Shown here one piece after another: positions 5,777 to 59,595 of a DNA stretch of 64,000 bases. The notes beneath the pieces were generated by a model, which saw only the letters and a program-made list of their open reading frames with translations, did no database searches and was not told where the DNA came from. Made by a program: the position numbers and the translations under genes. Numbering within the stretch: position 1 is the stretch's first letter; each line of letters starts with the position of its first letter. Source of the stretch: Pseudomonadales bacterium (GTDB lineage Bacteria; Pseudomonadota; Gammaproteobacteria; Pseudomonadales; Azotimanducaceae); assembly GCA_011525295.1 (NCBI GenBank), contig WTGV01000026.1, forward strand, positions 62,001-126,000. The letters run 5' to 3'.

Positions 5777-5789
5777 GATGGTCTCTCTT

Positions 5790-6014
5790 TTAGTGCTGGT
5801 CTGTGTAGGGTAATAGCGCAAGGTACCGAGCGCGTTTAATTGCCCTTGCCAATTGGCGTTGGTAGCGGGCACTTGTACCCATCATGCGGGCCGGTGTAAT
5901 TTTCCCAGTTTCTCCAATATACTGCTTGAGCGTCTCAAGATCTTTGTAGTCAATTTCTTTCACGCCGTCAGCAGTGAATCGGCAGGTACGGCGTCGTCTA
6001 ACATTTCTGATCAT
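5790..6014 (-). CDS. rpsR: 30S ribosomal protein S18
   Basis: This 74-residue basic protein has the S18 signature ([15 protein letters not shown], then [33 protein letters not shown]). S18 forms a heterodimer with S6 on the 30S platform. Its ATG overlaps the rpsF stop codon in an ATGA arrangement at 6011-6014, which indicates translational coupling with its binding partner. Confidence 0.97.
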
Positions 6015-41776: not shown

Positions 41777-42896
<1,120 letters not shown>

Positions 42897-42898
<2 letters not shown>

Positions 42899-42925
42899 GA
42901 GAGACGTCGTACACTGCCCTCTCTC
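42897..42925 (+). terminator. Possible terminator after frmA
   Basis: GAGAGAG (from 42897) can pair with CTCTCTC (42919-42925) around a 15-base loop, directly overlapping the stop codon. The following TTATA is a poor T-tract, so termination is uncertain. Confidence 0.4.
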
Positions 42926-43452
42926 TTATAGACTTTGCTCTAGGTCTAGGGGGTTCTGGACTAGTTAATTTCTGTGCACTCAAGATATCTTGACTCTAAA
43001 AATTATTTTGCGGTAGCCTGCCACGTATCGAATCACTAGGCGGAAGAACAAGCTATATCTCCTAAACAGGATGCTACGTCAATCAAATCGATCAGTAGCG
43101 ATTCCGTAGTAGTTGAACCAAGCACCAGACATCAATCTAACGCAGTATTTGTATGGATAGGAGCGTATTGGAGCTTGAACTCGACAGGTAATAGTGAGGA
43201 TTGACTCTCTAATTGGTACTCTCGCCGAGTAACTAATTAAAATCGTAGTGTGTAGACCTTAAACGTACACACACTGAATTTGCACAACTCCGTTGGGCTT
43301 AGTCTGGTGATTTGTGTGACTTTTTGCGACCACGTAAGAAGGGTAGGCTGAAGAGATACCGATCTTACTAGGATCACACGGTTCTTGGATGAGTCCCTTT
43401 TAATGTTGACTGACTACAGTCAGGAATCTTTAATTCAAGGAGAAGTGTTCTA
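42899..43452. other. Non-coding gap before the first EF-hand gene
   Basis: These 554 bases contain no credible gene on either strand. The 3' end holds the leader of the EF-hand gene at 43453, with AAGGAG about nine bases before its ATG. I see no tRNA, repeat array or clear riboswitch. Confidence 0.5.
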
Positions 43453-43986
43453 ATGAAGACCCAAAAATCAATTGCTATCGTACTTGTCTCACTGCTAACG
43501 GTCGTGGGAGGAGCACTCATAGCACAACAAGGAGGTATGGGAGGTATGCAAGGCTTCCAGATGCCATCTGAAGAAGAAATGAAAGAAATGATGAAGGCAG
43601 AAGCTGAAGCTGCAGCTAAACAGTCAATGGAGGAATATGACGAAGACGAGGATGATAGTCTGTCCCTTGACGAATTCACGAAGATGGTTGATGCGGGGGA
43701 AGCTGAAATGGGACAGGCGGCAGAGATGATGCCTGCTTTAAAAAAGCTGCTTGGCCCAGAAGAGGAGACTGACGAAGAAAAAGCAGAACGGATGAAAAAG
43801 ATGTTTGAGGGTGCCGATGGTGACGATGACGACTCAATGTCAATGGAAGAAATAGTGGATTTTCAGGTAGAAATAATGGATAAAACGATGAAACTAATGA
43901 TGGGCCAAGATATTGATGACGATGAAGATGAATCTGACGATGAAGAAAGCGACGAAGAAGAAGAAGACGAAGAGGAGGAAGGTTGA
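43453..43986 (+). CDS. Secreted acidic protein with two EF-hand loops and a poly-acidic tail
   Basis: This 177-residue protein starts with a signal peptide (MKTQKSIAIVLVSLLTVVGGALIAQQ). A Gly/Met/Gln patch (about 27-36) follows, then a helical Glu/Ala/Met region. EF-hand-like loops are at 63-74 (DEDEDDSLSLDE) and 122-133 (DGDDDDSMSMEE). Both have Asp instead of Gly at loop position 6. The last 25 residues are almost all Asp and Glu. An AAGGAG site precedes the ATG. It is probably a periplasmic or exported calcium-binding protein; no function is known. It pairs with the gene at 44112. Confidence 0.8.
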   Translation: MKTQKSIAIVLVSLLTVVGGALIAQQGGMGGMQGFQMPSEEEMKEMMKAEAEAAAKQSMEEYDEDEDDSLSLDEFTKMVDAGEAEMGQAAEMMPALKKLLGPEEETDEEKAERMKKMFEGADGDDDDSMSMEEIVDFQVEIMDKTMKLMMGQDIDDDEDESDDEESDEEEEDEEEEG

Positions 43987-44111
43987 TCCGTCGTTCTTCT
44001 AATCGGCGTACTTTCGCAAAACAATGAGAATCCTTTCTTAAAGGATTTTGCAAACCTCTTCGTAAAATAGTTTGAAAGCAAGTTTTTAACTAACTTTTTG
44101 GGAACAACATT

Positions 44112-44678
44112 ATGAAGAGCAAACTATTGGTTGCCGTTTCGGCTGTCTCTGTAGTCTTAGCGCTCCCGTTACTCGCCCAAGGTCAAGGTGGCGGGCAATG
44201 GGGAGGCGGCCAAGGCGGTAACTGGGACATGGACGCAATGAAGACACGCATGGTCGATGGTGCTATTGAAACGCTGGACACAGACGACGATGGAGAATTG
44301 TCAAAAGAAGAATTTGTGGAAATGGCCACAAACGAACGGTACAGTTCTTGGTTCGAAGCAACTGACGATGAAAACGAAGAAGAGTCTGACGACGAAGACG
44401 CTGAGGCTACTGAAGAAGAAGAGGCGACTGCGGACGAGTCAGAAGAAGGCGACGACGAGAGCGAGGAAGATGCTCTTAAGAAACTGTATGAAGCTAAGTT
44501 TGCCGAAGTCGATGCCGATGACGACGGAAGTGTCACATCTGAAGAACTAACGGAAGCCTTTGACGTTGACGCCTACATGGAGCGAGCTCGTGAGCGATGG
44601 CAACAAGGCGGCGGCAATCGCCAACGTGGTGGTCAAGGAGGAGGAAATTGGCAACGCCCAGGAGGCGGATCTCCGTAA
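44112..44678 (+). CDS. Secreted EF-hand protein with Gly/Gln-rich ends
   Basis: This 188-residue protein has a signal peptide (about 1-22, ending LLAQ) and a Gly/Gln/Trp-rich segment (24-37). A canonical EF-hand loop sits at 56-67 (DTDDDGELSKEE), followed by a strongly acidic spacer (about 84-120). A second loop is at 134-145 (DADDDGSVTSEE), and the C-terminal tail is rich in Gly, Gln, Arg and Trp (about 165-188). The oppositely charged tail and spacer suggest self-association or polymer binding. It lies 125 bases after the preceding EF-hand gene and ends before two hairpins. Confidence 0.8.
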   Translation: MKSKLLVAVSAVSVVLALPLLAQGQGGGQWGGGQGGNWDMDAMKTRMVDGAIETLDTDDDGELSKEEFVEMATNERYSSWFEATDDENEEESDDEDAEATEEEEATADESEEGDDESEEDALKKLYEAKFAEVDADDDGSVTSEELTEAFDVDAYMERARERWQQGGGNRQRGGQGGGNWQRPGGGSP

Positions 44679-44686
44679 TTTCTTCT

Positions 44687-44712
44687 GGCTAGTTAGTTGT
44701 GTTTAACTAGCC
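44687..44712 (+). other. Hairpin after the EF-hand gene
   Basis: GGCTAGTTA (44687-44695) pairs perfectly with TAACTAGCC (44704-44712) eight bases downstream of the stop codon. The T-tract is weak, so this may protect the mRNA end rather than terminate. A stronger terminator follows. Confidence 0.55.
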
Positions 44713-44754
44713 CTTATTCGATTATCGTTTCGCTGAAGGATCGTCTTCAGTTCT

Positions 44755-44787
44755 GAGAGGTGGAGCAATTGCTTCACCTCTCTTTTT
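44755..44787 (+). terminator. Intrinsic terminator of the first EF-hand cluster
   Basis: GAGAGGTGGAGC (44755-44766) pairs with GCTTCACCTCTC (44771-44782) around AATT, with one G-T wobble, and runs straight into five Ts. This is a good rho-independent terminator on the plus strand. It insulates the EF-hand genes from the convergent tRNA genes. Confidence 0.85.
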
Positions 44788-44850
44788 GTATTGCACGGAA
44801 GAGTTCAAGTTCGAATACAGTGCCTTGAACGATCAGACCGGCGCGAACAT

Positions 44851-44940
44851 TGGCGGAGAGGGAGGGATTCGAACCCTCGATGGGTTTCTGCCCATACTCC
44901 CTTAGCAGGGGAGCGCCTTCAACCACTCGGCCACCTCTCC
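44851..44940 (-). tRNA. tRNA-Ser (anticodon GCT)
   Basis: This is a 90-base class II tRNA with acceptor GGAGAGG pairing with CCTCTCC and an encoded CCA at the 3' end (44851-44853 on the minus strand). The anticodon stem CTCCC/GGGAG encloses CTGCTAA, giving GCT. A long variable arm and GGTTCGAATCC are present. Order csrA, tRNA-Ser(GCT), tRNA-Arg(ACG) equals that next to csrA in E. coli, though here Arg precedes Ser. Confidence 0.97.
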
Positions 44941-44959
44941 AGTGTCGTTGCGACCAATT

Positions 44960-45036
44960 TGGCGCGCCTGACAGGACTCGAACCTGTAGTCGCCAGTTTC
45001 GTAGACTGGTGCCTTATCCAGTTTGGCCACAGGCGC
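44960..45036 (-). tRNA. tRNA-Arg (anticodon ACG)
   Basis: This is a 77-base tRNA with acceptor GCGCCTG pairing with CAGGCGC and an encoded CCA at 44960-44962. The anticodon stem CCAGT/ACTGG encloses CTACGAA, giving ACG, whose first A is normally changed to inosine. The T-arm carries GGTTCGAGTCC. It is 19 bases upstream of tRNA-Ser and probably co-transcribed with it. Confidence 0.97.
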
Positions 45037-45107
45037 ATGGTTTACTTGTAAGAGATAAGGCGAGACTAAGCTACCTCACGACAAGCATAAAAACCTAATA
45101 CTAGCGA

Positions 45108-45278
45108 TCAGGCTTTCTGCTTTTGTTTCTTTTCTAAGATTTCTTTTCTGTGGACGATCACGTCACGAGGTGCGGCGATTCCTATTCGTACCTGATTCCC
45201 TCGTGTATCTAACACCGTTACTTCAATCTTTCCGTCTATTACTAATGTCTCATTGATGCGTCGCGTGAGGATAAGCAT
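45108..45278 (-). CDS. csrA: Carbon storage regulator CsrA
   Basis: CsrA is a small homodimeric RNA-binding protein that controls translation and stability of many mRNAs. The 56-residue product begins [23 protein letters not shown] and contains [21 protein letters not shown], both hallmarks of CsrA. A strong GGAGGAGG lies just before the ATG at 45276-45278. It follows lysC and alaS on the same strand, the standard synteny. A LexA-like box over a TATAAT lies 214 bases upstream. Confidence 0.97.
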
Positions 45279-45489
45279 CGCAACCTCCTCCGTGAATGGT
45301 ACTCCGCTTCGTCTAGTTGCCCTTACCTAACTAAACGCCTCGCGTACATAATTTCCTTTTATCAACAATAAATTTTACTCGGAATGAAAACACCAAATCT
45401 CTTTGTCCATTGAGCCCGTCAAGCACAGCAATCACAAGCGAACGACCGCAAAGAATTTGAGTACTCTCAAAATTCGAGAAAAATTCTTA

Positions 45490-45509
45490 TCCTGTTATAT
45501 TATACAGTA
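45490..45509. promoter_or_regulatory. LexA (SOS) box-like site upstream of csrA
   Basis: The core CTGT-N8-ACAG (45492-45507) matches the gammaproteobacterial LexA consensus with an AT-rich spacer. On the minus strand it overlaps a perfect TATAAT (45499-45504), facing csrA about 210 bases away. It lies ten bases beyond the lysC stop. Binding is inferred, not shown, and AT-rich terminator regions can mimic such sites. Confidence 0.5.
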
Positions 45510-45518
45510 TTTCAAAGT

Positions 45519-46763
45519 TTAATCTGATCCTAAATCAAATGCAGAGTGCAGCATTCGAACTGCTAACTCGCAAAAATCTTCGTGAATCACCACCGAAATC
45601 TTGATCTCAGATGTCGAGATCATCTGAATATTGATACCGTACTGAGCTAGCGTTTCAAACATTTTAGTAGCAATTCCCGCGTGGGAACGCACGCCTAGGC
45701 CGACGGCAGTTACCTTCGCGATCGCGTCATCTCCGATTACTTCCATTTCGCAAAGATTGGAATCTTCCGCCTCGCGTCGCAAATGAATGACTTGATCTCG
45801 CAAAATTTCGAGAGACTGTTCAAAATCATTTCGCGGTACTGTAAATGTTAAATCTGTTCGTTCATCTCTACTCACGTTTTGAACGATCATGTCGACAGAG
45901 ATGTTCGCATCGCCCACTGGACCTAATAATTGATAAGCGATGCCTGGGATGTCTGGAACGTTTGTAATTGTTACCTTGGCTTCGTTCTTGTCGAAAGTTA
46001 TGGCTGACACCTCTGGTTGTTCCATTGATTCTCCTTCTTCTACAATTAATGTACCGGGACCGTCGATAAAGCTAGAAAACACTTTTAGTGGTATCGAATA
46101 CCTACGAGCGTATTCGACCGACCGTAAATGTAACACTTTAGCTCCTAACGCAGCAAGTTCAAGCATTTCCTCAAAGGTCACACGATCCATGCGTCTCGCT
46201 TGTTCAACAATGCGAGGATCGGCGGTGTATACACCATCAACATCAGTGTAGATACGGCACTCCAAGGCTTCCATAGCAACAGCTATAGCCACTGCCGTAG
46301 TATCCGAACCTCCTCGACCGATCGTAGTAATCTCACCGGTGGGAGCGACTCCTTGAAATCCCGCGACGACCGGTATTGCACCCTGATTGATTGAACGCCG
46401 TAGTTCTTCGCACCCAACGTCAGTAATTCTCGCTCGTTGATGACAACCGTTGGTGTACACGGGAACTTGATTTCCTAAATAGGACATTGCTGGTTCTCCA
46501 AGATCTTGAATTGCCATCGCGATGAGCGCAACGGACACTTGCTCGCCAGATGCTAGCAATACGTCCATCTCGCGAGGGTCTGGACGATTTGAAATCGAAT
46601 ATCCAAGATCTTCGAGTTTATCAGTTTCACCCGCCATCGCGGAAACTACCACAATGACTTCGTGCCCTTCTTGGCGGCAGGCTACGACTTTTCTTGCGGC
46701 CGCTTGAACTCGTTCAAGATCGCATAACGACGTGCCGCCAAACTTCGTTACGATCAAACTCAT
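45519..46763 (-). CDS. lysC: Aspartate kinase (monofunctional)
   Basis: This enzyme phosphorylates aspartate, the first step toward lysine, threonine and methionine. The 414-residue protein has the kinase motif VTKFGGTSL at the N-terminus, GRGGSDTTAVAIA in the middle and two C-terminal ACT regulatory domains (ITNVPDIPGIAYQLLG; VGLGVRSHAGIATKMFETL). It lies between alaS and csrA, as in Pseudomonas. Confidence 0.95.
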   Translation of the reverse strand: MSLIVTKFGGTSLCDLERVQAAARKVVACRQEGHEVIVVVSAMAGETDKLEDLGYSISNRPDPREMDVLLASGEQVSVALIAMAIQDLGEPAMSYLGNQVPVYTNGCHQRARITDVGCEELRRSINQGAIPVVAGFQGVAPTGEITTIGRGGSDTTAVAIAVAMEALECRIYTDVDGVYTADPRIVEQARRMDRVTFEEMLELAALGAKVLHLRSVEYARRYSIPLKVFSSFIDGPGTLIVEEGESMEQPEVSAITFDKNEAKVTITNVPDIPGIAYQLLGPVGDANISVDMIVQNVSRDERTDLTFTVPRNDFEQSLEILRDQVIHLRREAEDSNLCEMEVIGDDAIAKVTAVGLGVRSHAGIATKMFETLAQYGINIQMISTSEIKISVVIHEDFCELAVRMLHSAFDLGSD

Positions 46764-46769
46764 TGAGGC

Positions 46770-49388
46770 TTAGGTAGTGCGTTCCGCGACCCAATTCTCG
46801 ACAGATCGTAACGCGTCGGGAAGCATAATAGCATTCGTCCCTCCACCTGCACGAGCGAGTTCCGGGGTACCACCCCCTCGAGCACCCACTTGAGCACCTA
46901 CAAACTGCACTAATTCGTCCGCCCGTATATATGCTATTAGATCCTTTGATACGCCACAAACGAGCTGAACTTTCCCTCCTAACTCGATACTAAGAACTAT
47001 CACTCGAGACGGCAGCCTCGAAGCTATTTCATCATGTATGGACATCATTTCTTTCGCGTCGCCGTTGACCTGAGCGCTCACCACCGAGACTCCATTTATC
47101 TCGCGTGCAGAAGCTACTAATTCCTTCCCAACATCAGCGTGACTCTGTTGCGACAATGTTCTAATCTGTTGTTGTAATTCTGCTTTTTCTTCGATCAAGG
47201 ATTGGACGCGACCAGGAAGCTCGCTCGTTTGCGTCTGAAATATCTGAGCTAGTTCCTGCAAGGTACGTTCATTCTTTCGCGCTCGGGCTTGTGCTTCGCG
47301 ACCTGTAACTGCCTCAATGCGCCTAGTCCCGGCCGCGATGCTTGTCTCCGCGTAAATCTTGAGCGAGCCGATTTCACCAACAAAGGGCACATGCGTACCA
47401 CCACAAAGCTCCACAGAGAATCCATTACCCACACTTAGTACACGAACAAAATCATCGTACTTCTCGCCAAACATTGCAACTGCCCCACTCGAAATAGCAT
47501 CGTCATAAGGCATTACCTCTGTTTTGACTTCACTATTCAGCGCGATCTGAGCATTAACCATATCTTCTAATGCGTCAATTTCGTCCTGAGTTAATGCTTG
47601 TTCGTGTGAGAAGTCAAAGCGAAGTCGATCGGGTGCGACCAAAGAACCACGTTGTTGCACGTGAGGTCCCAATACTCTCTTAAGAGCTTCATGTAACAAA
47701 TGGGTCGCCGTATGGTTCCGAGCAATATCCTGACGTCGAATTGCATCCACTTGAGTAGCAACGTGTTCACCCTTAGTTAGTGCTCCACGAGTCACCTCCC
47801 CGTAATGCAGAAATTGGCGATCCATACGTTGCGTGTCGCGCACTTGAAAGGTAGCAGTTGGCGTCGATATTTCTCCCGTATCACCAATTTGTCCCCCTGC
47901 TTCCCCATAAAAGCCTGTTCGATCAAGCACTAAGATGCCAGGATCACCTTCGTTCAAGGTATCAACCGGGTTTGGAGTCCCGTTAGAAGTTTTGAATGTC
48001 TCCGTGATCACGGAGGCCACACTGAGGCTGTCGTAACCTTCAAATTCGACCTCCGAATCAAATCGCAGTTTGCGATCCTGCGCGGTTTCGAACTGACTTG
48101 CGGCACGAGCTCGATTTCGTTGAAGTTCCATGAGTTCGTCAAAGTTGTCGCTATCGACGGTCAATCCTTTCTCACGCGCGACATCTTCGGTGAGATCTAG
48201 CGGAAAGCCATACGTGTCGTACAACTTAAACGCAATTTCGCCGTCGATCACCGTCCCGGACAGGTTTTCGATTTCGGTCTCCAGCAACGTCATGCCGTAA
48301 CGTAGTGTTTTTGCAAACTTTTCTTCTTCAAGCCGTAACGAGGTGCTGATTCGCTCGAGATTGTCGCTGAGAGAGCTATATGTCTCTCCCATGCTTTCGG
48401 TAAGTGGTCGTACGAGAGTGTGAAAGAAGGTGTCTTGAATTCCTAACTTGTAACCGTGTCGTAGAGCTCGACGGATGATCCGACGCAAGACATAACCTCG
48501 TCCTTCATTTGACGGCAAGACTCCATCCGAAATGAGAAATGCACATGACCTGATGTGGTCAGCAATCACTCGTAAAGACGGTTCTTGTTGAAGTTCGTTT
48601 GGATCATGGATGTTCGCGATTCGGGCCGTCGTTTGGATTAAGTGCGAAAAGAGATCCGTCTCGTAATTACTGCTGACTCCTTGCATCAGGGCTGCGGTGC
48701 GTTCCAAACCCAAACCTGTATCAATCCCTGGGGCAACTAGCGGCACTAATTCCCCATCCGATTGTCGATCAAACTGAGGGAACACTAAGTTCCAAAACTC
48801 CAAAAATCGATCTCCGTCTTCGTTAGCAGAACCAGGTGGTCCTCCTTCTAGATTCGGTCCTTGATCAAGAAATATTTCGGTATTTGGACCACAAGGACCA
48901 GTTTCTCCCATTTCCCAGAAGTTGTCTGCATGATCTATTACTCGTTCTTTTTTAATTCCAATTTTTCGAGTCCAGAGTTCTCGGGCTACATCATCAGTCG
49001 GATGGACCGAAATCCAAATCTGGTCACGATCAAAGCCCAATACCTCCATTACGAAGTTCCAAGCCCAGTCAATTGCTTCTTCCTTGAAATAATCGCCAAA
49101 GCTAAAGTTCCCAAGCATTTCGAAGAGAGTATGGTGTCGAGCGGTGTAACCGACATTTTCCAAGTCGTTGTGTTTACCTCCCGCACGCAGGCACAACTGA
49201 CACGATGCAGCGCGCGGAACTGTTGGTGTCTCAACCCCGATAAGCTGGTCTTTGAACTGCACCATACCCGCTACGGTGAACAATATGGTTGGATCATTTT
49301 GAGGTACTAACGGAGCTGATGGAAATACCGTGTGGTCTAGTTCTCGAAAGTAATCGAGATATGCTCGTCTAATTTCTTCGGTGCGCAT
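46770..49388 (-). CDS. alaS: Alanyl-tRNA synthetase
   Basis: AlaRS charges tRNA-Ala. The 872-residue length is normal. The class II catalytic core is at the N-terminus (RRAYLDYFRELDHTVFPSAPLVP, YTARHHTLFEMLGNFSFGDYFKEEAI). The editing domain carries the zinc motif RNHTATHLLHEAL with CGGTHV, and a C-terminal DHHA1 domain has GARGGGTPELARAGG. It starts 77 bases after recX and precedes lysC by six bases. Confidence 0.97.
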   Translation of the reverse strand: MRTEEIRRAYLDYFRELDHTVFPSAPLVPQNDPTILFTVAGMVQFKDQLIGVETPTVPRAASCQLCLRAGGKHNDLENVGYTARHHTLFEMLGNFSFGDYFKEEAIDWAWNFVMEVLGFDRDQIWISVHPTDDVARELWTRKIGIKKERVIDHADNFWEMGETGPCGPNTEIFLDQGPNLEGGPPGSANEDGDRFLEFWNLVFPQFDRQSDGELVPLVAPGIDTGLGLERTAALMQGVSSNYETDLFSHLIQTTARIANIHDPNELQQEPSLRVIADHIRSCAFLISDGVLPSNEGRGYVLRRIIRRALRHGYKLGIQDTFFHTLVRPLTESMGETYSSLSDNLERISTSLRLEEEKFAKTLRYGMTLLETEIENLSGTVIDGEIAFKLYDTYGFPLDLTEDVAREKGLTVDSDNFDELMELQRNRARAASQFETAQDRKLRFDSEVEFEGYDSLSVASVITETFKTSNGTPNPVDTLNEGDPGILVLDRTGFYGEAGGQIGDTGEISTPTATFQVRDTQRMDRQFLHYGEVTRGALTKGEHVATQVDAIRRQDIARNHTATHLLHEALKRVLGPHVQQRGSLVAPDRLRFDFSHEQALTQDEIDALEDMVNAQIALNSEVKTEVMPYDDAISSGAVAMFGEKYDDFVRVLSVGNGFSVELCGGTHVPFVGEIGSLKIYAETSIAAGTRRIEAVTGREAQARARKNERTLQELAQIFQTQTSELPGRVQSLIEEKAELQQQIRTLSQQSHADVGKELVASAREINGVSVVSAQVNGDAKEMMSIHDEIASRLPSRVIVLSIELGGKVQLVCGVSKDLIAYIRADELVQFVGAQVGARGGGTPELARAGGGTNAIMLPDALRSVENWVAERTT

Positions 49389-49465
49389 TTTGGAGTTTCA
49401 AAAAAGTGTATCGTTTGGAACTTTAAGATGGTGTCTGATGACCCTCAAACAAGTGCTCGGCCTAC

Positions 49466-49948
49466 TTAATCGGGCTCAGACTCCAACACTTGTCGAATGA
49501 TATTCGCGGGATACCCTCGATTTTTCAACAATCGGCTTCGAATTGACCAGGCCTCGTGTGTGCGTGCTTCTTGTGGTGATATACTGCGTTTCATGCAATT
49601 CAACTGATCTAATTTCAACGCGCGTTCAAGCCAAAATTTTTGATCGCTTGGGAGATAGTGCTTAATTAGCGAATCTATGATACCACGTTGAGATAGATAG
49701 GCACGAATTTTTATTGGACCATCGTCAGTGCGTAAGCGCGCACGAACCGCTATTTCAGTAAATCGGGAGTCTGATAAGTATCCATCCGACGTGAGTTCGT
49801 CAAGTGTGGCTGACACCAGTTCGAAACTTCCACCGCGAGCCAGTAGTTTTGATCGTAGTTCGTAAGTTGAATGCTCGCGGCGCCCGAGTAGCCGTAGCGC
49901 AATTTCTTTGAGTTGCGACGCGTCTAGAACCGGTCTATTTTTGGACAC
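49466..49948 (-). CDS. recX: Regulatory protein RecX
   Basis: RecX binds RecA filaments and limits recombination and SOS induction. The 160-residue helical protein has ALRLLGRREHSTYELRSKLLARG, TLDELTSDGYLSDSRFTEIAVRAR and KNRGYPANIIRQVL, matching RecX repeats. It starts with GTG 21 bases after the recA stop, consistent with co-transcription. Confidence 0.92.
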   Translation of the reverse strand: MSKNRPVLDASQLKEIALRLLGRREHSTYELRSKLLARGGSFELVSATLDELTSDGYLSDSRFTEIAVRARLRTDDGPIKIRAYLSQRGIIDSLIKHYLPSDQKFWLERALKLDQLNCMKRSISPQEARTHEAWSIRSRLLKNRGYPANIIRQVLESEPD

Positions 49949-49969
49949 AGACTCAGTTTAACAAGGTCT

Positions 49970-50989
49970 TTAGTTCTCAGCTCCGTCTTCAGTAACCTCT
50001 TGCTTGAACACGTGGGCGCGAATTTTTGCTTCGATTTCGTTGGTAACTTCTGCATTGTTTTTAAGCCACAGTTCGGCGTTTCGTCGTCCTTGTCCAATTC
50101 GCTCGTCATTAAATGAATACCAAGTACCGGACTTCTCCAACAAACCTTGATCTACAGCCATATCCAAGACCTCACCGACGTAGTTAATTCCTTCGTTGTA
50201 CAGAATCTGAAACTCCGCCTGCCGGAACGGCGGTGCGACCTTATTCTTGAGCACTTTCACGCGGGTCTGATTACCTTGGACTTCATCGCCTTCCTTAATC
50301 TGTCCAATACGACGAATGTCCAAGCGCACTGAAGCGTAGAATTTCAGCGCATTCCCACCTGTGGTGGTTTCGGGTGAGCCGAACATGACTCCAATCTTAC
50401 TTCTAATTTGATTGATGAAAATCACCAAGGTGTTGGAATTCTTGATATTCGCGGTCATCTTGCGCAATGCTTGACTCATCAAGCGTGCTTGGAGACCTAC
50501 GTGGGAGTCCCCCATCTCGCCTTCAAGCTCCGCCTTGGGGGTGAGCGCAGCGACCGAGTCTATAACAATTACATCAATAGCTCCGGAACGCACCATCATG
50601 TCACAGATTTCTAAGGCTTGTTCGCCGGTGTCTGGTTGTGACACGAATAACTCTTCAGTGTTAACACCAAGCTTCTTGGCATAAATTGGGTCCATGGCGT
50701 GCTCTGCGTCAATGAACGCGCAGGTGCCACCTTGTTTTTGAGCCTCGGCGACTACATGTAAGGTCAATGTCGTTTTTCCAGAGGACTCCGGACCATAAAC
50801 TTCAACGACTCGACCGCGCGGTAGACCACCTACGCCGAGTGCAATGTCGAGCGCTAGAGAGCCGGTGGAAATCACTGGAATTTCCTCCTGTCGTTGCTCA
50901 CCTAAGCGCATCATTGAGCCCTTACCGAACTGTTTCTCTATTTGCGACAGTGCTACTTCAAGAGCTCTGTCTTTAGCAGAATTGCTCAT
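49970..50989 (-). CDS. recA: Recombinase RecA
   Basis: RecA drives homologous strand exchange and LexA autocleavage. The 339-residue protein has Walker A GPESSGKT at about 66-73, [50 protein letters not shown] and an acidic C-terminus. AAGGAGAT lies three bases before the ATG. A LexA-like box lies 21-40 bases upstream of the start codon. mutS is divergent across a 248-base gap. Confidence 0.98.
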
Positions 50990-51009
50990 AATATCTCCTT
51001 GTTATGGGT

Positions 51010-51029
51010 TACTGTATAGATTATCAGTC
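51010..51029. promoter_or_regulatory. LexA (SOS) box-like site upstream of recA
   Basis: TACTGTATAGATTATCAGTC resembles the LexA consensus. One half-site is perfect (TACTGT) and the other is TCAG rather than ACAG. Its position just upstream of the recA ribosome site fits known SOS control of recA. Confidence 0.65.
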
Positions 51030-51237
51030 AAAATTCAAGGGCTTTTTGAAGCTTTTTCCGAAGTTCGGGCAAATTCGGTCCCAATAAAAAACTCGAAACT
51101 CCTACACGAACGCTAGTTTATGAATTCTAGAGAAATGTCACTTATAGATGTCTCCAATACAACCACCCACTACTCATAATTTATTAGTTCGAACCCAACT
51201 CATCGATGTACCTTGAAACAGTCTCTAGACAGCTTGC

Positions 51238-53820
51238 ATGAATAAGCCCACCCATACGGCGATGATGCGACAGTACATGGAGCTAAAGTCGCAACATCCA
51301 AACGACTTACTTTTCTTTCGTATGGGCGACTTCTATGAACTGTTCTTTGACGATGCTATCGAAGCTGCGGAATTGTTGGAGATTACTCTCACCGCGCGAG
51401 ATAAACAAAGCTCAGACCCGATTCCGATGTGCGGAGTACCACATCATGCTGTCGAAAGTTATCTGACGAAACTAGTAGCACGTGGTAAAACCGTCGCGAT
51501 TTGTGAACAAATAGGCGACCCCGCTACGAGTAAAGGGCCGGTTGAACGGCAAATCGTTCGCGTGATCACTCCAGGTACGATCACTGACGAATCACTGATA
51601 CAAAGTGATCAAGAGAGTGTCTTGCTGACGATCAACAATGCAGGCAAGCGTTCCAGCCAATATGGTGTTGCGTGGATCAATTTATCTACTAACGCCTTCA
51701 ATGTTGCAACCGTGAAGACTCGAGCGGAACTTACAAGCCTGCTGGAGCAAATCAATCCAGCCGAGATCGTCATACCCGAATACGCCAATCTTGAGTTAGA
51801 CGGTCGGAATTTTCGCGAACTTGATCCGCTACGTTTTGATGACCAACTAGGTTTAGCTGCCCTCACTCGGCACTTTCAGACCCAAGACTTAACAGGTTTC
51901 GGTATTTCCAGCGACAGTAGCACGATTGGTGCAGCTGCTGCCGCTCTCTCTTACGCGCAAGATGCCTATCGGCAGTCGCTGGAGTTCATTCAATCGATCC
52001 AGCAATATCAAGACAGTCAAACTCTACAACTTGATGCGCAAACCCGTCGAAATTTGGAGATCGACGTAAAAATTGGATCGGAACAAGTCGCAGGGACTCT
52101 CTATGACACAATAAATTTCACCGCAACTCCCATGGGTTCCCGTCTCCTCCGACACTGGTTGCATGAACCTAGCACCGATACTACTGTAGTTATCGAACGT
52201 CTTAATGTCGTGGAAGCACTGATAAACCACCAGTTCCTAGACCTTATCTATCAACAACTACGACCTCTCGGAGATGTTCAACGCACAGTTACGCGGCTTG
52301 CCATGACATCTGCCACACCTCGAGATCTAGTACGCATTAGCACAGCTATCTACTGCTTTCAAGAACTGCAGCCAAGCATCAAAACACTTAAAGTAGCATC
52401 CGAGTGGGATGCTTTCGAATCTGTACCCGACCTGACGGATACGATGCAGCTCATTGACCGAGCAATCGTTGACAATCCGCCAGTCACTGCTCGAGACGGG
52501 GGAGTGTTTAAACTTGGATTCAACACTGATCTCGACAGCCTTCGCCAAATTCGTGACCACGAAACAGAATTTCTTGCTGAACTCGAAGACCGCGAGCGAG
52601 AACGCACCCAAATCCCCACTCTGCGCGTTGGATTTAATCGAGTACATGGTTATTACATCGAGCTATCTCGTGCACAAGCTAGCAAAGTCCCAGGAGAATA
52701 CGTTCGTCGACAGACACTGAAACACAGCGAAAGGTATATAACTCCCGAGCTAAGGGAATTTGAAGAGCGATTTCTCACTGCCGAGGCAGAAGCGTTGGCC
52801 CTAGAAAAAGAGTTGTACGCTGAACTTGTTCAGGAGATTGCAAAGGAGTCGCAAAAACTACGTCTACTCGCCGAAGTACTCTCAAGATTGGACGTCCTAA
52901 ATAGCTTTGCCAGAGCCAGTCACGAGTACAACTTCGTACGACCACAATTTACGACTGACAGCGTACTAACGATTGAAGATGGCAAACATCCTATTCTGGC
53001 TACTAGATCGGAGCACGAATTTGTCCCAAACTCCATTGAACTAAATCAATTTCGTCGCATGCTCATCGTAACAGGTCCGAATATGGGAGGCAAGTCCACC
53101 TATATGCGCCAAACCGCGTTGATTGTCATTCTTGCGTACATCGGATGCTTTGTACCTGCAAAGAGTGCTCTCGTCGGACCGATTGACCGCATCTTCACAC
53201 GCATTGGCGCTTCCGACGATTTGCTCGGTGGTCGCTCGACTTTCATGGTCGAAATGACTGAAACGGCGCAAATCTTGCACAACGCTACTGAATCGAGTTT
53301 GGTCTTGCTTGACGAAATTGGACGTGGTACCAGCACTTACGATGGTTTAGCGCTAGCGTTGGCCATCGCGGCGGCGATGGCGCAGCGCGTTCAAGCCTTC
53401 ACACTCTTCTCTACTCACTTTTTAGAGCTTACCTCTTTAGCGCAAGAATTAACCAGTGTTGAAAACGTCCATCTGAGCGTACTGGAACATAAAAGAAAAG
53501 TGGTGTTCCTACACACAGTCGAACCTGGCGCAGCTTCGCAAAGCTACGGTATTCAGGTCGCGAAACTCGCTGGAATACCTGGGAAAGTACTGCAACACGC
53601 ACGAAACCAATTGCATAGGTTAGAACAGGCAGCTAGTCAAGGTCAAGCGACAGACTTCACTGACCTATTCACCGACGATATTCCCGAGGACGAGTTTGAA
53701 CATCCAGCCGTTGAAAGACTAAAAGATTTGAGCGTAGACGACCTTTCTCCACGTGAAGCGCTTGAACTTCTGTATGAATTGAAAGTAGCGGTAGAACGTG
53801 AGGATAGATTAAAGAGTTAA
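51238..53820 (+). CDS. mutS: DNA mismatch repair protein MutS
   Basis: MutS recognises mispairs and small loops. The 860-residue protein has the mismatch-binding Phe-X-Glu in [13 protein letters not shown], the Walker [33 protein letters not shown] and the C-terminal helix-turn-helix region. It is divergent from recA. In many gammaproteobacteria fdxA and rpoS follow it; here four EF-hand genes intervene. Confidence 0.97.
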
Positions 53821-53909
53821 AATCGCTTGTCGGTGTAAACTTTTTAAGAAAGTGCGCATCTAATTTATTAACTGACTGCAATCTGCAGAGTTTAATCCTG
53901 GGAGTGACT

Positions 53910-54644
53910 ATGAAATTTTCGAGAATACTAACTGGACTAGTTATCTCATCATTGGGATGCTTGTCTTTTTGTGCCCTCGCAGACGACGAATATGATGCCA
54001 AACATCAGTACGTCTTGTCTGATCGGAACTGGTTTGGTTCGGGCGCAACGATACAAGATTTGCGCGACCGTTCAACCAACACGTTTGAACTTCTGGACCA
54101 AGATAACAGTAGCTCAATTACATTTGATGAAATCGACCTGAGTGAGATGGAAACTGAAGTATCAGACATGACCAATGAAGAACTTAGGGAATATAGTCGA
54201 CGCGTGAGTGCTATTCATAGCAAGTTCATGAACTGGACGACTGAATTCGACGAGTTTGAAGTTGTAGACACTGATGGCGATGGGGTATGGAACCGAGATG
54301 AATACGAAGATCGCGGCCAAAATCTGCAAAGTCATCGATTAAGACTTGGTTTAGAAGAATGGGACACTGACGAGAATGGTGCCGTTGAATTGCACGAATT
54401 CAATAGTCATTTGGACGAACTGGAACTTCTTGACGAGAACGCCGACGGTACTGTTTCACATCAAGAAGCATTCAAGAGTGAAGATGACAAGGTTATATCC
54501 GATGTCTTTAATAAACTGAAGTCAGATGAACTGTTGTGGGCTAGCCTTAAAACCGTAACCTCGGACATAGAAGCCGAAGCTGAAGCTACATTTACGAGGT
54601 ACATGTTCATCAAACAGAAGGAAGCCGATAAAGCCGACAAATAG
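53910..54644 (+). CDS. Secreted four-EF-hand protein (family copy 1)
   Basis: This 244-residue protein has a signal peptide (about 1-24, ending CALA). EF-hand loops are at 63-74 (DQDNSSSITFDE), 120-131 (DTDGDGVWNRDE), 152-163 (DTDENGAVELHE) and 175-186 (DENADGTVSHQE). The first has Ser in place of the usual Gly at position 6. A conserved WFGSGATIQDLRDRS precedes the first hand. The ATG at 53910 has GGGAG five bases upstream; a GTG at 53904 is less likely. Copies 2 and 3 follow. Calcium binding is inferred; the role is unknown. Confidence 0.83.
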   Translation: MKFSRILTGLVISSLGCLSFCALADDEYDAKHQYVLSDRNWFGSGATIQDLRDRSTNTFELLDQDNSSSITFDEIDLSEMETEVSDMTNEELREYSRRVSAIHSKFMNWTTEFDEFEVVDTDGDGVWNRDEYEDRGQNLQSHRLRLGLEEWDTDENGAVELHEFNSHLDELELLDENADGTVSHQEAFKSEDDKVISDVFNKLKSDELLWASLKTVTSDIEAEAEATFTRYMFIKQKEADKADK

Positions 54645-54709
54645 CTGTCTTCCCTCTAATCTACCCAAGCGTCGACAACGCAGTTCACTCACAATAGAAA
54701 AATTCGGAA

Positions 54710-54749
54710 AGTGGTAACCTTTTTTATTCAAGGTTCATCTATTACCACT
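54710..54749 (+). other. Two-part hairpin between EF-hand copies 1 and 2
   Basis: AGTGGTAA (54710-54717) pairs with TTACCACT (54742-54749), and inside it AACCTT pairs with AAGGTT. It lies about 65 bases after copy 1 and 40 bases before copy 2. It could be a weak terminator or a structured leader; the T-rich stretch lies in its loop, not after it. Confidence 0.45.
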
Positions 54750-54787
54750 ATCTACCTTTTCGCAATTTTCACTCACGGGAGAGAAGC

Positions 54788-55528
54788 ATGAAATTTAGTC
54801 GAAATCTTACCGTTTTCGCACTAGCTGTTCTGGCATTAGGCGGTATCAGCGCGTCAGCAGACGAAGCCTCGAAAGAGGGTCTTGATTTCCTGGATCAGCT
54901 GGGCTGGTTTAAATCAGGCGCGCAGATTCAGGAATTACGCGAAAGCTCAAACAAGGTGTTCGAGTTATTGGACGAGAACGACAGTGGGTCTATTACGCTT
55001 GATGAAATCGACCTCACTCAATTCGAAACTGATATGGAGAAGATGAACCCAGCCGAACTACAACAAAATCGACAGCGTATCAATGCAATTCGGAGCAAAT
55101 TCATGAGCTGGTCGGAAGAGATCGACGAATTTGAGGTTGTAGATACAAACAGTGACGGGTATTGGAGCGAGGAAGAGTATGAGGCTCGCAGGGAAAATCT
55201 CAATCTCCACCGCCTAGAACTAGGAATAAAACAATGGGATACGGATGAGAACGGAGCAGTAGAGTTGCACGAGTTTAACAGTCACTTGGACGAATTGGAA
55301 ATGCTTGACGAAGATGGAGATGGGATTGTATCTCGAGAGGAAGCGTTCAAGAGTAAAAACAGTCATGTTATAACCGACGTGTTAAAGCAACAGATTCATG
55401 CCGACGCTACTATTATGGTTGGCGGTCCCACGTTATTGAAAGCCCTTCCAGAAGGTGCAATTAGCGGCGGGGTACACATGGAAGTCATCCATACGAAAAC
55501 TGAAGTAGAAGACAGCAAAAAAGACTAA
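54788..55528 (+). CDS. Secreted four-EF-hand protein (family copy 2)
   Basis: This 246-residue paralogue has a signal peptide (about 1-24, ending ASA) and the conserved LGWFKSGAQIQELRESS. EF-hand loops are at 62-73 (DENDSGSITLDE), 119-130 (DTNSDGYWSEEE), 151-162 (DTDENGAVELHE) and 174-185 (DEDGDGIVSREE), all with Gly at position 6. GGGAGAG lies before the ATG. It is more diverged from copies 1 and 3 than those are from each other. The gene ends before a strong terminator. Confidence 0.83.
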   Translation: MKFSRNLTVFALAVLALGGISASADEASKEGLDFLDQLGWFKSGAQIQELRESSNKVFELLDENDSGSITLDEIDLTQFETDMEKMNPAELQQNRQRINAIRSKFMSWSEEIDEFEVVDTNSDGYWSEEEYEARRENLNLHRLELGIKQWDTDENGAVELHEFNSHLDELEMLDEDGDGIVSREEAFKSKNSHVITDVLKQQIHADATIMVGGPTLLKALPEGAISGGVHMEVIHTKTEVEDSKKD

Positions 55529-55592
55529 CCCACCCAAACTCTTTCAAGGTTTTGGAGTTCTACCAAAACTCTTTCAATCACACTAACTCTCG

Positions 55593-55620
55593 ACGACGGC
55601 ACCTGCAAAGGTGCCGTCGT
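55593..55620 (+). terminator. Strong intrinsic terminator after EF-hand copy 2
   Basis: ACGACGGCACCT (55593-55604) and AGGTGCCGTCGT (55609-55620) form a perfect 12-bp stem around GCAA, followed by TATTTA. The GC-rich stem with a tetraloop is a classic rho-independent terminator. It separates copy 2 from copy 3. Confidence 0.88.
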
Positions 55621-55808
55621 TATTTAGTAAAAATGCAATGACCTGTTGAGGGCTTGCTTATCTAGCACGAAAGAGAGCTCTTAGAAAATATTTTTCAGCT
55701 ATGTCATCGCGGTTAAAATCGACAAGAGATGTAACTAACATAGGTGGAAATACATCTAAAAAGGGTACTGTACCAGTTTTCGCAACGTTGATTTATGGGA
55801 GTTTTAGT

Positions 55809-56540
55809 ATGAGAATTGATCGAATCCTATCGAGTTGTGTATTCGCAACTCTGAGTTGTTTTTCTTTTAGCGCGTTCGCAAACGGGGGTGAAGAATCTGG
55901 GCTTCAGTCATTTGAAGTTGATTGGTTTTCTTCGGGCGCGGCAATCCAAGATCTACGCGACCGTTCAACCAAGACGTTTGAACTTCTGGATCAAGACAAC
56001 AGTAGCTCAATTACTTTTGACGAAATCGATTTGAGTGAAATGGAATCTGAGGTTTCCGACATGAACAATGAGGAACTTCGGGAATACAGTCGACGTGTCC
56101 AAGCTATTCAGAGCAGATTCATGAACTGGACTATTGAATTCGACGAGTTTGAAGTTGTCGACACCAATGGTGACGGCGTATGGAATAGAGATGAGTATGA
56201 AGAGCGGCGCCAAAACCTCCAGAGCCATCGCTTGCAGCTCGGATTAGAAGAGTACGACGCCGACGAGAATGGTGCTGTTGAATTGCACGAGTTCAATAGT
56301 CACTTAGACGAGCTTGAACTTCTTGACGAAGATGCCGACGGCATCGTCTCACACAAAGAAGCTTTCAAGAGCAAAGATGACAGAGTCATATCTGATGTAT
56401 TGATGAACAGATTGGCAGCAGATGAGATGGTCTGGGCTAGCTATAGTATGGCCGCTCCGGCCGCGTCAACAAGCAACGCGTTTGAAGTCAAAGTCATGCG
56501 GAACGTTGAGATTGAGGTAGACAAAAAAGCTAAAGATTAA
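55809..56540 (+). CDS. Secreted four-EF-hand protein (family copy 3)
   Basis: This 243-residue protein is close to copy 1, with long stretches nearly identical even at the DNA level, so the two arose by recent duplication. It has a signal peptide (about 1-25, ending AFA) and EF-hand loops at 61-72, 118-129, 150-161 and 173-184. The ATG at 55809 is chosen because GGGAG lies seven bases upstream and it opens on the signal peptide; the frame from 55701 adds 36 residues without features. The C-terminal 45 residues differ between copies. Confidence 0.83.
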   Translation: MRIDRILSSCVFATLSCFSFSAFANGGEESGLQSFEVDWFSSGAAIQDLRDRSTKTFELLDQDNSSSITFDEIDLSEMESEVSDMNNEELREYSRRVQAIQSRFMNWTIEFDEFEVVDTNGDGVWNRDEYEERRQNLQSHRLQLGLEEYDADENGAVELHEFNSHLDELELLDEDADGIVSHKEAFKSKDDRVISDVLMNRLAADEMVWASYSMAAPAASTSNAFEVKVMRNVEIEVDKKAKD

Positions 56541-56773
56541 AACTCTGGACGCTAACTAGTACTTGTTTAGCGATCTAGTGGTCGACACCCTGGTTCATAC
56601 TTGACCCAAAATTATTTGTAGCGATACCGAGTAATCGCTGCTTTTATAAACTGTTTGCATGACAGGGAAGTGCGCTGTAAACTGTACTGCGTGTAATTCA
56701 CTAAAATTTTTGTTTACTCCATTTAGGGGTAGCGTTATCTCTTGTCCAAGTTGAATTCCATACTATTGTTTCG

Positions 56774-57805
56774 ATGACTTCTCGTACGTTTGTGTGGACT
56801 TGTTGTTTTGTCGGCATGACGACATCCCCTTTGCTGGGACAAGAACCTGTTACAGACGAAGTCTCCGATCCCGACCGTCGGGACATACCCTCTCAAACTA
56901 ACTCGATCTCTGTCGGATATCAAGGGTTTGAAATAAACGAGCAGTTGGTGCAACCCACTGGTGGCGTTCGTTCTGGGACGCTACCGGACTACGACACCGT
57001 AGTCGAGCAGTTATGGGGGACTGGTTTTGACTTTGATGAAGGAGACCAAGACGCGGACGGCTCACTATCCGAACTAGAGTTGTTGAATCTGTTTTTGGAA
57101 CATTCGCTCGAAGAAGTGGAAGCAAACGCGTGGGCTACCTTACTATTCCAAAGCGGTGACATAAATAAAGATGAGCTGGTGTCGGATTCCGAACTGATGG
57201 TACTTCACTACGCGCCACTTCTGGAACACCAGATCAAAAAAGGCTACTTAAGTGATGGTAGTACTCATGTACAGATCACCTTCGAAGACGAGTCCTTGAC
57301 CGACTTTGTGAATACCTTCGCATATTACGTTGCGACATTACGAGTAGAGGGATATAAAACGCTTGAAACGAACATCTTGTCCTTAGAACGGAAAATCGAA
57401 ATTGACCCACTGTACTTTGACCAAAGATTTCTACCTAATCTTAGCAACAAAGCAGCGTTCGATTTAACCAGTCAGACCATCAAGTCAGACGGCAAACGTG
57501 TTGCGATGGGAATCAATCTCTGCTTATTCGAGCTAAATTGCATCGTACGATTAGGACGTTTTGACTCAGATGATGATCTCGCTCTTTCTGAACAGGAATG
57601 GGTGAATGCTCAAGACACGATCTTTCCAAGTGATGAAAATCTGTTGTCGATGACCAAGGACGAGGAAACGTTTGGTCTCTCGAATGATGATAGGACCCCT
57701 ACTTTTCAGATCTTAGACGAAAACAACGATGAACAGGTCACTATCGCTGAACTAGTGCACTTTGTTCGTGAATCAATGGCCGAATTCGGTGATGTAGAGC
57801 TCTGA
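56774..57805 (+). CDS. Exported protein with diverged EF-hand loops
   Basis: This 343-residue protein has a likely signal peptide (about 1-22, ending LLGQ). Loops resembling EF-hands are at 91-102 (DQDADGSLSELE, canonical), 129-140 (DINKDELVSDSE), 264-275 (DSDDDLALSEQE) and 315-326 (DENNDEQVTIAE). The last three lack Gly at position 6. The hands form two pairs separated by about 120 residues. No ribosome site is obvious before the ATG. It shares the locus and general design with copies 1-3 but not close sequence. Function unknown. Confidence 0.72.
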   Translation: MTSRTFVWTCCFVGMTTSPLLGQEPVTDEVSDPDRRDIPSQTNSISVGYQGFEINEQLVQPTGGVRSGTLPDYDTVVEQLWGTGFDFDEGDQDADGSLSELELLNLFLEHSLEEVEANAWATLLFQSGDINKDELVSDSELMVLHYAPLLEHQIKKGYLSDGSTHVQITFEDESLTDFVNTFAYYVATLRVEGYKTLETNILSLERKIEIDPLYFDQRFLPNLSNKAAFDLTSQTIKSDGKRVAMGINLCLFELNCIVRLGRFDSDDDLALSEQEWVNAQDTIFPSDENLLSMTKDEETFGLSNDDRTPTFQILDENNDEQVTIAELVHFVRESMAEFGDVEL

Positions 57806-58119
57806 GTCAATAACATCAATCCATCTCCTTTAATGGCTTATGGAATCGTTGTCTAGACACTCTGGAAATCCATAGCGATCAAGAATACGAAGCTATGGTA
57901 TAGATTTACAACTAAGCGACGGTCGTTTTATCAATCAAATGTGTCGCAATCAATTATCGTCCAAGTCGGTACAATATAGAATAGAGGAAATTGGATACAA
58001 GTTCCAATCCAAAATTATTTAGCTGGATCTGGATCGTACCCTCCACATGCCCGATGCGCAACCCCTGCGCTATTCATTCTTTGTATGTATATCAATCAGT
58101 TGAACAATACACAGCAACT
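57806..58119. other. Gap between the last EF-hand gene and fdxA
   Basis: These 314 bases contain no credible gene. An open frame from 57991 joins fdxA but shows no homology before the family start. The region probably carries the fdxA promoter; no clear terminator for the EF-hand gene is seen. Confidence 0.45.
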
Positions 58120-58443
58120 ATGACATTCGTAATCGGACAAGCATGCATCAAGTGCAAATTGACAGACTGTGTCGAAGTCTGTCCTGTCGACTGTTTCTAT
58201 GAAGGTCCGAACATGTTGGTGATCCATCCGGACGAGTGTATCGATTGTGCGTTGTGTGAGCCAGAATGTCCTGTCGACGCAATCTACCCGGAAGACGAAC
58301 TACCTGAGGATCAACAAGAATTCATGGCCATTAACGCGGAACTAGCTGAGGTATGGCCAAATATTGCTGAAGCTAAAGATCCACCTCCCGACGAAGCGGA
58401 GTGGCGCGACGTAAAAGACAAGCTCAAATATCTTGAGCGTTAA
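58120..58443 (+). CDS. fdxA: Seven-iron ferredoxin FdxA
   Basis: This 107-residue ferredoxin closely resembles Azotobacter ferredoxin [23 protein letters not shown] supplies the mixed 3Fe/4Fe ligands and [16 protein letters not shown] the second set, followed by the long C-terminal helix region ending LKYLER. The ATG at 58120 ([12 protein letters not shown]) matches the family. It ends directly against the nlpD stop with no spacer. Confidence 0.95.
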
Positions 58444-59595
58444 CTAAATTTCCTCGGCCTTCGGTTTCCCAATTAACTTATTTGGATCCTGAGGCACACC
58501 CTTTTTCCGAATCGCAAAGAACACCTTTCGGTACTCATCCGACCCTGTACTTTGTTGTCGTTTGCCATTGTTAACGATCTTGACGAGATCTTGACCTTTC
58601 GAAACTAAATCGTTTTCCTGAACGGAGAGATCGACGTTGAAATCATACTGTATTACGTAGTCATCAGGTGTCTTGATTAGCACCATATACTTGAAGTCGC
58701 CCAAAGCTACGCCTGCATAAGTAATGCGTCCCGAAGCAGCAGCCACTACTGTATTCCCTAGATTCAAGAAATAGTCCAATCCATCATCTTTCCCAAAAGA
58801 ATTCGTCGGACTCGCTGAAACGGGCCAGGTCCATCCTTTGGGTAATGAGTCAACACTCTGTTCCGACGAAGATTCAGGCAGAATGTTGTTCGGTTCTGTT
58901 CGGGCTACAAAGCTCGGACCTGCATCTTCGTTTGGCGCAGTTGAAGCGGTAGAAGAATCGTTGTTTTGCATTGAAGTTTCATTCGACGCTACTTCTTTGG
59001 GTGCCTGTTTAGAAGGTGGTGGAGACTCAGTTTGGGGTTCTGTTGTTGTGTTTGTCTGCTCGGCAGAAGACTCTGCCACAACTCCTTCACTGGGTGGTGC
59101 TGCAGGTGTGTTCCTAGTGTTTGATGTATTCGAAGACGAAACTTGTCTCGTAGTCGGGGGTCTCGGCATTTTCGTTACTGTGACGCCCGATCGCCCTGTC
59201 TTCGAGGTGTTAGCCTTGGGTGTTGAATCGTCTTTCTGAGAGGTCAATGAAACCGATTCATTCGGTTTGTTTCGAGCCTCATCGCCACTGCTAGTCGCTT
59301 CCTGAGAGATTAACTTGTAGTCCACAACAAGTCGTTGTCCCGGATGGATGACATACGGTGCCGCAATATCATTCATTTGCGCAATTTGATCAACCGATAG
59401 CCCGTGTAAGCGGGAAATAGCGTACAGCGTGTCTCCAGATCTCACGTGATAATGGTAGACCCGTCGTGAATCTCTATCAATTGGAACGATAACCCGCTCT
59501 ATGGTTGGTGCCGGGACAATAGGAGCGCACCCCGATAAAACGGCGAACACTAATGCTCCAAAGACTGAACTAAGAAGAATTTTTCGTATATACAT
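58444..59595 (-). CDS. nlpD: NlpD-like lipoprotein with LysM and degenerate LytM domain
   Basis: NlpD-type proteins activate cell-wall amidases at the septum. The 383-residue protein has a lipoprotein signal with lipobox LSGC (Cys23), a LysM domain (YHVRSGDTLYAISRLHGLSVDQIAQMN, about 48-75) and a long Ser/Thr/Pro/Asn-rich linker. A C-terminal M23/LytM fold (WPVSASPTNSFGKDDG to the end) follows. The His and Asp zinc ligands of active M23 peptidases are not in place, so it is a regulator rather than an enzyme. It overlaps the DUF368 gene by 26 bases. rpoS is not downstream. Confidence 0.88.
   Translation of the reverse strand: MYIRKILLSSVFGALVFAVLSGCAPIVPAPTIERVIVPIDRDSRRVYHYHVRSGDTLYAISRLHGLSVDQIAQMNDIAAPYVIHPGQRLVVDYKLISQEATSSGDEARNKPNESVSLTSQKDDSTPKANTSKTGRSGVTVTKMPRPPTTRQVSSSNTSNTRNTPAAPPSEGVVAESSAEQTNTTTEPQTESPPPSKQAPKEVASNETSMQNNDSSTASTAPNEDAGPSFVARTEPNNILPESSSEQSVDSLPKGWTWPVSASPTNSFGKDDGLDYFLNLGNTVVAAASGRITYAGVALGDFKYMVLIKTPDDYVIQYDFNVDLSVQENDLVSKGQDLVKIVNNGKRQQSTGSDEYRKVFFAIRKKGVPQDPNKLIGKPKAEEI

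Follow-up and report, generated by a model that had tools for sequence, protein, structure and literature searches.

Six exported-looking EF-hand genes flanking recA-mutS-csrA in an Azotimanducaceae bacterium and a probable tie of one of them to an extracytoplasmic function sigma operon

It is still largely an open question how exported EF-hand proteins let bacteria sense the calcium outside the cell. A 64,000-nucleotide stretch of a Pseudomonadales genome (contig WTGV01000026.1, positions 62,001 to 126,000; hereafter the window) raises it in a concrete form. Six of its genes, P1 to P6, encode what look like exported or periplasmic Ca2+-binding EF-hand proteins and stand in two groups, P1 and P2 on the csrA side and P3 to P6 between mutS and fdxA. 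A first-pass annotation of the window took the six for one calcium-responsive system at this locus, and we asked whether they form such a set and what might control them. The one-system claim was not supported, as kin of P3 to P5 lie on two other contigs and the regulatory context is an operon outside the window. P2 probably belongs, judging from its sequence context, to a dispersed regulon of an extracytoplasmic function (ECF) sigma factor, of the cabp-sigV type described in Caulobacter, and P3 to P6 are a lineage-specific amplification of a four-loop module, with P6 added.

An ECF sigma operon outside the window and an element shared with P2

No sigma factor gene adjoins P1 to P6 in the window. 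On contig C18 of the same genome, the EF-hand gene c18 is followed by genes for an ECF sigma factor, a membrane protein, a Metal_resist protein and syd, a gene order seen directly. In profile searches the sigma factor matched PF04542 and PF08281, and Metal_resist (PF13801) was above cut-off in both proteins tested (own genome, G000, and relative G010); NF004113 fell below cut-off on this sigma factor and above it in one control genome and was not informative. The sigma factor as query hit 23 of 38 relatives at E 1e-20, with 24 matches in total, and protein searches gave Metal_resist matches in 20 of the 38. We read the neighborhoods of the sigma gene at 20 loci: an EF-hand open reading frame (ORF) stood directly 5' of it at 18, and ORFs with a membrane stretch, by a crude hydrophobicity cut, occupied the Metal_resist place at all 20 and the anti-sigma place at 16. 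The c18 operon holds the oldest-looking copy of the four-loop family. In G010, genes for a ZIP-family transporter and an outer-membrane beta-barrel stand beside the EF-hand/ECF/Metal_resist locus (L050:4474-5280, minus, and 5498-6139, plus).

The pattern AGGAW-N14-CGTW stands 60 to 70 nucleotides 5' of the ATG of four EF-hand genes in this genome: c18, P2, and c55a and c55b of contig C55. It is kept before P2 in six genomes, and the block 5' of c18, whose promoter-like form is GGAAT, 13 nucleotides, CGTAGA, is conserved in six genomes as well; similar blocks precede two genes of G010. The first pattern used, AAGGA-N15-CGTA, matched at 10 sites of the own genome, fewer than the 14 of its reversed form, and only the c18 and P2 sites precede a same-strand gene start at a fitting distance, the other eight lying inside longer open frames. 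Spacers of 6 to 23 nucleotides across 10 EF-hand genes yielded, besides the N14 sites, a single match, with a spacer of 11. Across 44 long loci, 183 start windows of EF-hand genes included 19 with the element, representing 16 distinct genes; among 897 non-EF windows it occurred in 2, one of them that of the P2 orthologue of G007. The 17 other spacers summed to 3 and 19, respectively; these counts take in orthologues and alternative starts, follow a pattern refined along the way and carry no P value. In one scan the background fractions were about 0.01 for P2 and c55a and 0.12 for c55b; another had a window and weights that missed c55b and a background of 171 that may include P2-type genes. Genome-wide, the four EF-hand sites are among 69 matches. 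Eight of the other 65 have an ORF of at least 90 amino acids starting 55 to 75 nucleotides on, and seven of these eight lie inside open frames of at least 400 bp; the eighth stands about 57 nucleotides before the GTG start of an MMPL-type gene (L184, G000:C26:18857), a possible further target.

The first-pass annotation knew of no described system of this make-up, a statement now superseded by the cabp-sigV circuit of Caulobacter, in which an EF-hand protein of the periplasm is coupled with an ECF sigma factor. According to the available part of that report (PMC13171946, from 2026), CaBP of Caulobacter vibrioides is periplasmic, has 133 amino acids and three EF-hands, and is encoded beside sigV; both genes are induced by acid and by calcium limitation, and the cabp promoter (GGAAA, 13 nucleotides, CGTTCA) was placed from a start mapped by rapid amplification of 5' cDNA ends (5'RACE). 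The authors describe the membrane link from CaBP to SigV as unidentified.

A circuit of this kind would have periplasmic proteins monitor the level of free Ca2+ (or of some other divalent ion) at the envelope. A change in the ion would lead the membrane protein to release the sigma factor, which would then transcribe its own operon and the unlinked EF-hand genes with promoters of the form GGAwn-N13-CGTA (P2 and the two C55 genes); the EF-hand products would buffer the change by binding the ion. P3 to P6, without the element, would probably be expressed separately, as additional binding capacity. We are close to evenly divided over this reading, in which a cabp-sigV-like circuit would reach P2 while P3 to P6 would have been amplified in one lineage without the element; export, signal, ligand, anti-sigma role, sigma-promoter recognition and function are predictions in it. 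More tentatively, we suggest a multi-locus periplasmic calcium-homeostasis regulon, where an ECF sigma factor gated by a membrane anti-sigma factor and a CnrX-like sensor would control the dispersed exported EF-hand family, the membrane pair would be the link missing from Caulobacter CaBP-SigV, and one lineage, possibly sponge-associated, would have multiplied the four-loop module in the mutS-fdxA interval. The C18-type operon offers two candidates for the membrane link of the CaBP-SigV circuit, and the element singles out a few promoters as predicted targets, one of which, that of P2, is in the window. The earlier claim of calcium responsiveness gains indirect support for P2 alone, through the shared promoter-like element, and none for the rest of the six.

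Several observations weigh against a circuit that reaches P2. The sigma operons of G003 and G006 (L066 and L067; 2 of the 20 loci) have no EF-hand gene. Anti-sigma models scored far under cut-off on the C18 membrane protein (22.3 of 100 and 17.6 of 225 bits), which we call anti-sigma-like from its position and membrane stretch. AGGAW-N14-CGTW shows no genome-wide excess, since its 69 matches compare with 88 for the reversed pattern; moreover, its final form was chosen with the first sites already in view, and several patterns were scanned before it. The element was not found before P1, P3, P4, P6 and c55c, nor before c55a of G002, and P5 has only a loose form of it that is lost in orthologues. 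At P2 it overlaps an antisense open frame of 137 amino acids, taken for spurious. In Caulobacter itself, as far as the available text goes, cabp and sigV are separate transcripts, cabp expression depends on SigT too, and SigV binding and the cabp promoter elements are unproven, with no mutational proof (PMC13171946).

Part of this evidence would also fit acidic calcium buffers, or envelope or matrix proteins, tandemly amplified without common control, the element being there by chance or left over from duplication. At least five EF-hand genes of the own genome stand without the element, which is no commoner genome-wide than its reversed control, and the proteins are highly acidic, P1 ending in a poly-acidic tail. 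However, P2 and c18 are not close paralogues, and yet the element is common to both and kept in six genomes; its strong dependence on spacing, seen directly in the counts above, also speaks against this alternative, which we regard as rather unlikely.

A second motif, TTAAAATCG, was considered as a common operator before P1, P3 and P5 (3 of 3 window matches, expected 0.81) and was dropped as a regulon signal. It had 17 matches in the own genome (two of them one palindromic place) against 13 for the reversed pattern, its CG is missing before P3 in several orthologues, and our interpretation of the motif is a sigma-70 -10 box. It also occurs just 5' of a Na+/Ca2+ exchanger gene (PF01699; L100, G000:C48:138349).

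The six window genes and the history of their family

Table 1. Positions and features of the window genes, the promoter-like element and the related genes on other contigs
Feature	Position	Strand	Description
ECF-type promoter-like element AGGAT-N14-CGTA	44042..44064	+	70 nucleotides before the P2 ATG; in all six close orthologues
P1	43453..43986	+	acidic, exported-looking; two loops, Gly6 -> Asp; poly-acidic tail; Pfam EF-hand below cut-off
P2	44112..44678	+	two-loop EF-hand protein, exported-looking; both ends Gly/Gln-rich; evidence: ORF, Pfam, orthologues
P3	53910..54644	+	EF-hand protein, four loops; mutS-fdxA cluster; evidence: ORF, Pfam, tree
P4	54788..55528	+	EF-hand protein, four loops; mutS-fdxA cluster; model confident at residues ~44-205
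P5	55809..56540	+	EF-hand protein, four loops; mutS-fdxA cluster; evidence: ORF, Pfam, tree
P6	56774..57805	+	343 amino acids; four diverged loops; confined to six genomes with the mutS-fdxA cluster
c55a, c55b	contig C55		two single genes, kin of P3 to P5
c55c	contig C55		double gene, 416 amino acids, kin of P3 to P5
c18	contig C18		kin of P3 to P5; first gene of the ECF sigma operon

The first description of the six genes was confirmed. All six plus-strand ORFs were located, the ATG codons of P3 (53910) and P5 (55809) being internal to longer ORFs, and the two groups are separated by plus-strand mutS and a minus-strand housekeeping block of csrA (45108-45278), lysC, alaS, recX and recA. The signal peptides ascribed to all six agree with N-termini that, judged from hydropathy, are signal-peptide-like, with a basic start, a hydrophobic stretch (mean Kyte-Doolittle 1.65-3.03) and cleavage-like sites with small residues; the mature parts are acidic (computed isoelectric points of 4.05-4.36). 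Two to four EF-hand loops had been assigned to each protein, and by pattern every one has them: two 12-residue loops in P1 and in P2, four in each of P3 to P5, and four diverged ones in P6, in line with the one protein said to have diverged loops. In the profile search, at least one Pfam EF-hand model was above cut-off for each of P2, P3, P4 and P5 and none for P1 or P6. The poly-acidic and Gly/Gln-rich regions noted in two proteins are the tail of P1 and the ends of P2. Ratios of nonsynonymous to synonymous substitution rates, computed against one relative (G011), were 0.10-0.15 for P3 to P6, 0.30 for P2 and 0.35 for P1, a range that indicates real, constrained genes.

We found no tandem repeats in window positions 42000-59000, and an Rfam search at E 1 returned two tRNAs above gathering score, plus five lower-scoring rows that look like chance. 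Pairs of tRNA genes (Asp/Val and Ser/Arg) adjoin two EF-hand clusters (L045:8878-9042 and window 44851-45036). An inverted repeat, GTGTGTA..TACACAC, lies between adh and P1 (window 43242-43280) and is partly kept in orthologues.

Protein searches spanned 58 relatives, with the own genome counted, 18 of them in the same genus. The P4 query had matches in 15 of the 58 at E 0.001, and the seven with a best E below 1e-40 all belong to the same genus; in the own genome it found eight matches at three places, namely mutS-fdxA, contig C55 and contig C18. Matches to P6 were confined to the genus (6/58, or 6 of its 18 members), and one genome holds a broken, weak P6 fragment besides. The 4.3 kb from mutS to fdxA, filled here by P3 to P6, shrink to about 100 bp in G003 and G006, the two genomes from another clade in which the interval was readable and where the empty site is directly visible; in G010, neither fdxA nor P3 to P6 was found within 8 kb past mutS. 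A tree of 46 rows places the 21 mutS-fdxA rows in a single group (support 96/95). The 12 C55 rows also group together, weakly supported (81/50), and the rows of G010, G014 and G023 stem solely from the ECF locus; the root and deep joins of the tree are unsure because of long branches (G014, G023 and some G010 rows). P3 to P5 are one locally duplicated clade, in line with the three close paralogues first described.

P2 had matches in 11 of the 58 genomes, as close orthologues in the same six genomes as P6 and as distant matches in G003, G006 and G010 (E 1e-10 or better), with weaker ones in G014 and G036. The P2-like gene sits between adh and lysC in G003 and G006; G010 has one beside lysC and two P1-like genes beside adh on a different contig. 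The set had been called lineage-specific, which is true of P3 to P6 and not of the P2-like genes at adh/lysC, which are older, P1 and P2 forming the older pair. The histories of P1/P2 and of P3 to P6 differ, and the six are therefore not one set by descent.

Further family members were noted in passing. G011 has two additional divergent four-loop genes between mutS and P3 (L047:13122-14573), with a similar extra in G013, and contig C56 of the own genome carries another two-loop, exported-looking EF-hand gene (L104:3449-4033), with no ECF-type element in the 160 nucleotides upstream. A pattern-based scan of genome_contigs for the family found 22 loci. Six metagenome-assembled genomes (OMG group Plut_88873 and the bins SB0661, SB0662, SB0666, SB0670 and SB0677) held 18 of them, and the remaining four were weak matches in other genomes (E 1e-10 to 2e-4). 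We take the SB bins with family loci to come from sponge metagenomes. The available part of one report places Nitrospira sp. SB0677 in sponges (PMC12203066), and the marine lineage studied here is possibly sponge-associated.

Likely ligand and comparison with known systems

We collected 46 family domains and used 45, leaving out one distant row of G023. Loop conservation is plain to see, position 1 being D and position 12 E in each of the four loops of all 45 domains, and on these loops calcium appears the likeliest ligand of the four-loop family. A structure model of P4 had a mean predicted local distance difference test score of 71.1, with blocks of about 77-92 from residue 41 to 200 that cover the loops. 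Foldseek returned nothing at E <=0.001 for this model, the best match being calmodulin (1.8e-3); lanmodulin, KChIP and calmodulin chains were nearly tied, which may reflect only a common arrangement. No solved-structure relative of P6 was found (best E 0.044).

Lanmodulin, a lanthanide binder, resembles the family in being small and exported, in its four EF-hands with short EF3-EF4 spacing, and in its tied best fold match. Its EF loops carry Pro at position 2. In contrast, Pro was absent from that position in 180 of 180 family loops (the 45 domains), the NCBIfam lanmodulin model NF053806 scored at most 22.4 of 135 bits, far under cut-off, and the best match to a pyrroloquinoline quinone alcohol dehydrogenase reached 220 of 480 bits. 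That the proteins are lanmodulin-like lanthanide binders is thus highly improbable.

A circuit in which a divalent metal other than calcium (zinc, nickel or cobalt) is sensed and bound would bring the C18 operon close to CnrYXH of Cupriavidus, where one operon encodes an ECF sigma factor, a membrane anti-sigma-like protein and a periplasmic protein of the Metal_resist family. The C18 operon likewise joins these three; it differs in being headed by an EF-hand gene, and no metal efflux genes were seen beside it in the own genome. The Metal_resist protein and the ZIP transporter gene next to the operon in G010 favor this explanation. All four loops are nevertheless canonical Ca2+ loops, no Cys/His-rich binding region was noticed, and the Caulobacter relative responds, in the accessible portion of its report, to Ca2+ depletion and acid (PMC13171946). 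We consider a metal other than calcium unlikely.

Two other EF-hand proteins proved less close. Identity with XopAW was rejected, the best NF041410 score being 37.7 of 120 bits, below cut-off. EfhP of Pseudomonas aeruginosa is an EF-hand protein tied to calcium-dependent gene regulation in the part of its report available to us (PMC11559002); the likeness is one of description, and its gene context differs from the EF-hand/ECF loci here. A term search of PMC7406223 gave nothing on EF-hands.

The nearest counterpart remains CaBP-SigV, as far as the available text describes it, and the likeness rests on gene order and promoter layout, not on sigma orthology. An exported EF-hand gene directly 5' of an ECF sigma gene is found on C18 and at 18 of 20 loci, and the GGAnn-N13-CGT layout precedes c18 (six genomes), P2 (six) and, in some genomes, c55a and c55b. 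The systems differ in that the proteins here have four loops and CaBP has three, that the operon here adds the membrane anti-sigma-like and Metal_resist proteins, and that the element also stands before unlinked EF-hand genes. Moreover, the family here has been amplified at three loci, a lineage having multiplied its predicted calcium-binding module at new places in the genome.

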